From: an uncultured Bacteroidota bacterium
Lineage (GTDB): Bacteria > Bacteroidota > Bacteroidia > 2-12-FULL-35-15
Assembly (NCBI GenBank): GCA_903911435.1
Contig: CAIWDF010000049.1
Coordinates: 1 to 32,674, forward strand
DNA: 32,674 bases
Reading direction: 5' to 3'
In this document: piece after piece, positions 2,168 to 5,262 of the stretch
How the letters are laid out: each line of letters begins with the position of its first letter
Numbering within the stretch: position 1 is the stretch's first letter
Made by a program: the position numbers and the translations under genes
Notes under the pieces: model-generated
Databases searched by the model: none
Told to the model about the DNA's origin: nothing
What the model saw: the letters and a program-made list of their open reading frames with translations, nothing else

Positions 2168-2195
2168 AAGCTCTGAACAGAAATGTGAGGGGCTT
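2168..2195 (+). repeat. hairpin repeat, copy 1
   Basis: AAGCTCT (2168-2174) can pair with GGGGCTT (2189-2195), using two G-U pairs, around a 14-nt loop. The 18 bases at 2178-2195, covering most of the loop and the 3' arm, are identical to bases 2563-2580 downstream. The copy here has no long T run, so terminator function is doubtful. Confidence 0.6.
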
Positions 2196-2254
2196 GTTTT
2201 GGAAAAAATACCATAATTTGAAACGTTCAATAATTTTTTTTCTGTACTTTTTTG

Positions 2255-2262
2255 TATATTTG
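2255..2262 (+). promoter_or_regulatory. -7 promoter box of the small basic gene
   Basis: TATATTTG matches the Bacteroidota -7 consensus TAnnTTTG and ends 4 nt before the ATG at 2267. I see no clear -33 TTTG at the usual 17-21 nt distance. If used, the mRNA would be leaderless or nearly so. Confidence 0.5.
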
Positions 2263-2266
2263 CAAT

Positions 2267-2443
2267 ATGAAAAGGGATAAAAAAATACATCTTGATTTTG
2301 TAATAAATAGCAGACCTTTGACCAAAGAAGAGGAAATTAGTATTAGCGAATACATCCGTGCATACAAAGCAAAACATAGTCATAAAAAAGGTGCAAGTAA
2401 GCGTGTAGTAAAGTCGACAGCAAAGAAGAAAGCTGTTGCCTAA
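2267..2443 (+). CDS. small basic hypothetical protein (58 aa)
   Basis: The start is taken as ATG 2267 because it directly follows a -7 box. An upstream in-frame TTG at 2252 overlaps the promoter and is unlikely. The protein has an N-terminal half reading 'LDFVINSRPLTKEEEISISEYIRAY' in overlapping pieces, which looks like a short beta strand followed by an acidic helix. Its tail is rich in Lys, Arg, Ser and Ala, like a nucleic-acid-binding extension. No membrane segment or signal peptide is visible. The gene sits between two copies of a hairpin repeat. It resembles other short Bacteroidota hypotheticals, but I cannot name a function. Confidence 0.6.
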   Translation: MKRDKKIHLDFVINSRPLTKEEEISISEYIRAYKAKHSHKKGASKRVVKSTAKKKAVA

Positions 2444-2550
2444 CAGAAGCCATTTTACTTTGCGGGAAGACCGCATAGAAGCTAACAATAAGCAATTGTT
2501 GCACAACCTTCATTTTTGCAACAATAATAAAACAGAAACATTGAAGAATT

Positions 2551-2586
2551 AAGAGCCCTAAGCAGAAATGTGAGGGGCTTTTTTTT
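2551..2586 (+). terminator. Rho-independent terminator, hairpin repeat copy 2
   Basis: AAGAGCCC (2551-2558) pairs with GGGCTTTT (2575-2582) through one G-U pair, and the T run continues to 2586. It lies about 110 nt after the small basic gene. Its loop and 3' arm share 18 identical bases with the hairpin upstream of that gene. Confidence 0.7.
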
Positions 2587-3977: not shown

Positions 3978-4026
3978 GAAATTACAAATGCAAATTTCTT
4001 TTGAATTTAAAATAAACGAAAACACA

Positions 4027-5262
4027 ATGAACCATACGGTAACCGAACGATTTTTGAAATATGTGAAAATAGATACCCAAAGTGATGCCTCATCGCCTAC
4101 TTGTCCGAGTACTGAAAAACAAAAGGACTTAGCGAGAGTATTGGTGCAAGAACTTTTGGAAATGGGAATAAAAGATGCTCACATGGACGACAACGGTTAT
4201 GTTTACGGCACTTTGGAAAGCAATACTCAAAAAACAGTTCCAGTAATTTGTTTCTGCTCCCACATGGATACTTCACCCGATTGTTCGGGCAAGAATGTGA
4301 ATCCGCAGATACATAGCAACTATGATGGAAAAGACATCACCCTAATCAACGACCCAACACAAATCATAAAAGTAGCCAACCATCCATCGTTGTTGAAACA
4401 AATAGGCAACGACATCATCACTACTGATGGCACCACCCTGCTAGGAGCCGATAACAAGGCTGGTGTAGCCGAAATAATGGATGCCATGCATCAACTCATT
4501 AATCATCCTGAGCGCAAACATGGTACTATAAAAGTGCTTTTTACGCCTGATGAAGAAATAGGAAGAGGAGCCGACAAGGCTGATTTGGCAAAGCTTGGCG
4601 CTGATTATGGATATACCATAGATGGTGAAGAACTAGGACATATTGAAAACGAAACTTTTTCGGCTGATGGGGTAACCATCAATATTCATGGGGTAAGCAC
4701 ACATCCTGGTTTTGCAAAAAACAAAATGGAGAGTGCTATTAAAATAGCTTCAGAAATAGTTGCAGCTTTGCCCGATGACGAAATGAGTCCTGAAAGCACC
4801 GAAAAGAAACAACCCTTTGTACATCCAGTAAGCATTACGGGTGCTGTGGAAGAAGCCAGCATACAGTTTATCATTCGTGCTTTTGAAGAAGAAGATTTAA
4901 AAAAACAAGAAGACTTTTTGAAACAATTGGCCGACCTCATCATCAAAGGCTATCCACATTCTACTTACGATTTCATTGTTAAAAATCAATATCGAAACAT
5001 GAGACAAGTGTTGGACCGCAATCCCGAAATAGTGGAGAATGCCATGGAAGCTGTGCGCAGAGCAGGTGTAGAACCTGTACTGTCGAGCATACGAGGTGGC
5101 ACCGATGGTTCGCGTTTTTCGTACATGGGTTTGCCTTGCCCTAATATTTTTGCAGGCGAACATGCATTTCACTCGAAGCACGAATGGGTTTCGGTACAAG
5201 ACATGGAAAAAGCAGTGAACACAATTGTAAATCTCGCAATGGTTTGGGAAGAGCGAAGTTAA
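4027..5262 (+). CDS. pepT: peptidase T (tripeptide aminopeptidase, M20B)
   Basis: Peptidase T removes N-terminal residues from tripeptides in the cytoplasm using two zinc ions. The 411-residue protein has the family landmarks: H79-x-D81 in 'SHMDTSPD', metal ligand D142 in 'LLGADNKAG', the catalytic and metal pair E176-E177 in 'FTPDEEIGRG', the 'IDGEELG' segment near 198, and a C-terminal His in 'GEHAFHSKHEW'. The length matches the family. The start at 4027 (MNHTVTERFLKYVKIDTQ) aligns with known PepT N-termini; the ATG at 3988 would add 13 unrelated residues. The 3' end of this gene carries the promoter of bshC. Confidence 0.93.
   Translation: MNHTVTERFLKYVKIDTQSDASSPTCPSTEKQKDLARVLVQELLEMGIKDAHMDDNGYVYGTLESNTQKTVPVICFCSHMDTSPDCSGKNVNPQIHSNYDGKDITLINDPTQIIKVANHPSLLKQIGNDIITTDGTTLLGADNKAGVAEIMDAMHQLINHPERKHGTIKVLFTPDEEIGRGADKADLAKLGADYGYTIDGEELGHIENETFSADGVTINIHGVSTHPGFAKNKMESAIKIASEIVAALPDDEMSPESTEKKQPFVHPVSITGAVEEASIQFIIRAFEEEDLKKQEDFLKQLADLIIKGYPHSTYDFIVKNQYRNMRQVLDRNPEIVENAMEAVRRAGVEPVLSSIRGGTDGSRFSYMGLPCPNIFAGEHAFHSKHEWVSVQDMEKAVNTIVNLAMVWEERS

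Follow-up and report, generated by a model that had tools for sequence, protein, structure and literature searches.

The closest described systems to the hairpins reported here are intrinsic (Rho-independent) terminators with a tetraloop, the REP/BIME repeats, and the Flavo-1 RNA (RF01705). GTAG-tagged REPs have been described (PMC3733652), and a flavobacterial transcriptome study describes Flavo-1 matches in both orientations and gives no clear role for them (PMC9723704). In literature on Flavo-1, tetraloop terminators, repeats, and toxin-antitoxin systems with terminators we found no description of the hairpin considered below.

The locus lies in a 32,674-nucleotide stretch of a contig from an uncultured Bacteroidota bacterium (the window, in whose coordinates all positions are given). 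Its initial annotation described two hairpins with an identical 18-base loop and arm on either side of a small gene of 58 residues, and sequence matches, folds and the open reading frame all bear this description out. The features of the region are as follows.

2007-2158, strand not given: REP-like palindromic repeat; copies at C307 of the same genome (94% identical) and at C7 of congener G004 (92%), others partial
2161-2202, + strand: hairpin 1; fold z -5.5; 50.3 bits with covariance model R1, whose own alignment includes this copy
2178-2195, + strand: 18-mer copy 1, by sequence match
2255-2262, + strand: promoter-like word TATATTTG, 4 nt before the ATG of the 58-aa gene, read directly
2267-2443, + strand: small basic gene of 58 aa; ORF with ATG at 2267 and stop ending at 2443
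2551-2586, + strand: hairpin 2, terminator-like; fold z -3.5; 52.8 bits with R1, whose own alignment includes this copy too
2563-2580, + strand: 18-mer copy 2, by sequence match
2627-2708, + strand: Flavo-1 (RF01705) element, within a dispersed repeat at 2622-2760; 36.6 bits against a gathering cut-off of 42, E 7e-6
2953-2985, + strand: separate terminator-like hairpin with a different apex

The two copies of the 18-mer CAGAAATGTGAGGGGCTT are identical and, with up to 3 mismatches allowed, are its only sites in the window, where shuffles predict 0.02. Both form a stable GC-containing stem-loop on the transcribed strand, at -17.9 kcal/mol for copy 1 (equalled by 0 of 200 shuffles) and -16.8 kcal/mol for copy 2 (equalled by 1 of 200), and the opposite strand of each folds weakly (-6.8 and -2.5 kcal/mol). 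Hairpin 1 has an outer stem CUGGAA/UUUUGG, an inner stem AAGCUCU/GGGGCUU, a 2x2 internal loop and the apex ACA-GAAA-UGU; hairpin 2 has the stem AAGAGCCCU/GGGGCUUUU and the apex GCA-GAAA-UGU. Directly after the stem, hairpin 2 carries a T8 tail (2579-2586), and the inner stem of hairpin 1 is followed by GTTTTGG, without an uninterrupted long T-run. Upstream of hairpin 1, the first ORF with 80 or more codons ends about 208 nt away, with the REP-like repeat between them, and hairpin 2 lies about 107 nt downstream of the stop of the 58-aa gene. Neither a terminator scan nor our own terminator caller detects either window hairpin, which we attribute to their internal mismatches. The 5′ arms of the two copies pair differently, partly via G-U pairs or mismatches. 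The initial annotation took them for compensating arms, a reading that the window pair alone cannot establish because its 3′ arm is the same in both copies.

The compensation is seen at the level of the genome (4.19 Mb in 312 contigs), in which the 18-mer occurs within 3 mismatches at 23 sites, including 8 exact ones, whereas a reversed control gives 2. Six exact copies lie outside the window, so the sequence is not confined to it, and all eight have a pairing 5′ arm; five of the eight show a GA/GA internal loop by eye. All 23 sites were read, one (L023) was dropped for poor folding, and the other 22, of which 21 are distinct, were aligned. Each of these 22 folding copies has a GC stem and a tetraloop, which by our count is GAAA in 17, and most have a T-run. 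Among the 21 distinct copies 91.8% of cells are paired, compared with 86.3% after shuffling, and 7 of 14 pairs change on both sides, compared with 3.8 after shuffling; structures slid along the alignment as a control are 31-63% paired. Selection for the folded form, which had been proposed from the window alone, thus finds support at family level in this covariation, together with the T-runs and the position of the copies behind genes.

The covariance model R1, built from family copies that it later scores, finds at least 111 places in its own genome with E no higher than 1, for 150 candidates scored out of 2330. Thirty of these reach E 1e-5 or better and, less 4 opposite-strand readings, represent 26 distinct hairpins, 24 of which have TTTT within the 3′ part of the match. 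Our caller detects 18 of the 26 and misses 8, including both window copies. Position relative to genes could be counted for 20; for the other 6 the locus extends less than 300 nt upstream. A same-strand ORF ends within 60 nt upstream of 12 of the 20, compared with 12.2% of intergenic positions (p 5e-7), and a same-strand ORF of at least 80 codons ends within 300 nt of 17, compared with 33.9%, for a control of 63,812 positions and strands that omits positions within ORFs and uses the nearest ORF end, with hits unfiltered and the longest ORF used. One of the 12 ORFs, of 87 codons amid repeats (L045), is doubtful and reduces the hairpins close behind genes to 11. Of the genes preceding own-genome copies, 14 were read over their first 70 residues, and by eye they look ordinary.

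Since the copies are repeated, their stems covary, T-runs follow them and they lie behind genes, we are confident, though short of certain, that both window hairpins belong to a family of intrinsic terminators repeated across the genome; our confidence is slightly lowered because the callers miss both window copies. Its members have a GC stem, a tetraloop at the apex that in most cases reads CA-GAAA-UG, and, as a rule, a T-run. Hairpin 2 is a plausible stop for the 58-aa gene: it would fold in the nascent RNA after that gene, and polymerase would be released at the T8 run. Hairpin 1 is doubtful as a terminator and may be a degenerate or weak member of the family, located in the spacer that separates the ORF at 1313-1954 from the 58-aa gene. 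That the 18 bases are identical is most likely due to shared ancestry, through duplication or conversion among the repeats of the spacer, combined with constraint acting on both the apex and the 3′ arm.

Beyond this genome the hairpin is unevenly distributed. At 1e-5, R1 has 0 to 21 matches in 25 congeners. A scan of one genome per species finds the core CCTTACAGAAATGTAAGG in at least 115 public stretches, and by title the 80 matches listed comprise 54 from Bacteroidota, 23 from Bacillota and 3 others. The 113 distinct contexts of this core among those 115 stretches include 95 with TTTT at most 14 nt downstream and 60 with an A-rich 5′ side, and an ORF ends within 150 nt of the core in 80, on the same strand in 47 and convergently in 45. 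The apex CAGAAATG accounts for 7 of 95 strand-wise terminator calls, or 4 of 80 distinct hairpins, in a sample of the own genome; in loci fetched for holding the hairpin it occurs in 8 plus 3 of 168 other terminators. A pattern scan for this apex matches 81 of 118 genomes, with 22 placements in the own genome against 1 for the reversed pattern, counts in which overlapping placements are taken repeatedly and for which we do not regard the reversed pattern as a neutral control. In 1.2 Mb of sequence sampled by coordinate, 60 kb from each of 20 Bacteroidia genomes, the apex is found in 0 of 240 hairpins, for a non-random sample (16 genomes from the pattern-scan match list and 4 congeners) and a caller that finds 18 of 26 known copies. 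The idea of a class-wide preference for the apex was abandoned because of this result. Taken with the varying congener counts, it makes the hairpin look like a type amplified locally, which some lineages have and others lack. A conserved position beside the M20 peptidase gene (3988-5262) was also considered and rejected: that gene has DNA matches in relatives, and the match there stops short of 2168-2586. R1 scores in nine M20 peptidase loci (L203-L211) are 28 bits or less.

Such uneven copy number, from 0 to 30 over the congeners and the own genome, would also be expected of a REP-like palindromic family kept by a Y1 transposase rather than by termination. The own genome has two Y1 transposase matches, and several hairpin copies lie in repeat DNA or close to contig ends. 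However, T-runs on the transcribed side, the position behind genes and the covarying stems all speak against this origin, and neither window hairpin has a GTAG or CGTC end tag by eye, so that we regard it as very improbable. As separate observations, the REP-like palindromes CCACGGGTTAAAACCCGTGGCTAC of the neighboring repeat (2007-2158) begin with GTAG on the other strand; on contig C173 (L015:1-760), two exact 18-mers lie 334 nt apart within a duplicated GCGAATAGGCAATAG-type repeat block near the contig end; and the window holds an inverted repeat TTGTTGCA...TGCAACAA at 2483-2539, with similar sequence at C30, C304, C254, C130 and C5 of the own genome.

The gene between the hairpins has a 58-aa product, or 63 aa from an alternative upstream TTG start in the ORF listing. 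The word TATATTTG before it is a putative promoter element, which fits the Bacteroidota -7 promoter word TAnnTTTG. The protein is present in 5 of 31 genomes searched (the own genome, 18 congeners and 12 others of the class), namely the own genome and four congeners. In three of these congeners (G012, G008 and G016) its homologue directly follows a gene for a 175-aa protein; in G015, the fourth, a gene resembling a tyrosine recombinase by eye lies upstream of the homologue, which is preceded by an apparent broken start of the 175-aa gene. A two-gene unit, a 175-aa protein followed by a basic protein of 46-59 aa, is seen at L034:1495-2207, L035:1489-2187 and L036:1492-2164, and its basic protein is related to the window's 58-aa gene. 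The 175-aa protein has no own-genome match at E 0.001. Because the partner found in congeners is unmatched here, the window's gene is probably the orphan second gene of such a unit, left behind in a repeat-rich spacer, and its start may derive from the start of the lost partner. Functional naming of the two proteins was given up, Pfam matches being well below cut-off (E 0.05-0.1) and NCBIfam matches absent; the 175-aa protein looked acetyltransferase-like by eye, and a toxin-antitoxin role is a guess. That an unnamed two-gene unit (175 aa plus about 50 aa, in neither Pfam nor NCBIfam) occurs in the genus is possibly a useful side result.

The placement of this gene between two identical 18-mers had suggested a mobile cassette, with the hairpins as the ends at which a unit carrying it recombines or transposes, and congener G015 has five such hairpins around two two-gene units, one of them with a PemK-like product just under its Pfam cut-off. 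However, the 58-aa gene has a single match in its own genome, the two window copies have different sequences outside the 18-mers, own-genome copies elsewhere follow other genes, and the loci of the four congener homologues lack a strong R1 hairpin (best 20.4 and 16 bits). The same gene with the same flanking repeats was not found at another site in the own genome, or in the 30 relatives searched for the gene. We judge the cassette to be extremely improbable. A new type of mobile cassette is not indicated by the evidence, and the hairpins of this spacer are ordinary; the value of the result is mostly that a confusing arrangement, a small gene flanked by identical hairpins, can be read with good confidence as repeated terminators.

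The five hairpins of G015 lie within 2.57 kb (L304:1-2571, contig C5), four of them each inside a 128-nt direct repeat that is 85-94% identical to the reference copy. The repeats bracket the two two-gene units and a minisatellite with a period of 21 nt. One unit ends in the PemK-like protein, which scores 22.9 bits against a Pfam cut-off of 23.1, and the other may be a toxin-antitoxin pair. This locus suggests, and is the best basis for, a broader model in which one terminator hairpin spreads through the genus with spacer repeats and builds insulated plug-in units of terminator, promoter, small toxin-antitoxin-like or orphan gene, and terminator, which would be gained and lost by recombination between the repeated terminators. 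We consider this model, taken as a whole, unlikely.

The spacer downstream of hairpin 2 raises a further alternative. The Flavo-1 match there falls below the Rfam gathering score, which other own-genome copies exceed. With 120 candidates scored in each genome, Flavo-1 matches number 26 in the own genome and range from 0 to 119 across 15 congeners. The stretch at 2622-2760 has a BLAST match in 17 of 22 loci compared and none in 5, with copies that were partly picked for similarity to the window, are often partial and are mostly about 80-93% identical. The Flavo-1 counts fit a dispersed repeat, and in this genus Flavo-1, typed by Rfam as an sRNA gene, would seem to behave as one, unlike a single gene, possibly a second useful side result. 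With one duplicate locus and one copy truncated at a contig end excluded, 16 Flavo-1-like copies, including that of the window, can be assessed. In four of these (the window, C295, C277 and C179), a hairpin with a T-run, then ATGTGTATAC and a AAGATTACGAAGAGTGATGCGCTGA-like spacer, precede the Flavo-1-like stretch at the same distance by eye, and C275 has the T-run and spacer without a clear hairpin. Hairpin 2 could thus be partly kept as a neighbor of Flavo-1. The stronger form of this proposal, in which hairpin 2 makes up the left-hand portion of a dispersed Flavo-1 repeat unit and is not the terminator of the 58-aa gene, appears distinctly unlikely: the arrangement is missing from 11 of the 16 copies, among them C240, whose hairpin is spaced differently; the four copies that share it have hairpins of differing sequence; and R1 matches nothing at 1e-5 in congener G002, which has 119 Flavo-1 matches (120 candidates scored). 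The same pattern would result from elements that landed next to terminators.

The terminator reading can be set against each of the described systems. Flavo-1 RNA begins 40 nt behind the T-run of hairpin 2 and follows such a hairpin in 4 of 16 assessable copies, but its structure is different and most assessed copies are without the hairpin. REP/BIME repeats are likewise dispersed, intergenic and palindromic, and vary in copy number among species, whereas the hairpins described here usually have a T-run and follow genes, and the two in the window show no GTAG or CGTC tag; the REP-like repeat at 2007-2158 is an element separate from them. Relative to intrinsic terminators with a tetraloop, the family is unusual in that one apex and nearly one stem are reused about 25 times in this genome, and hairpin 1 is without a T-run; the family shares with them the GC stem, the T-run usually found behind it, the place behind genes and the covarying stem.
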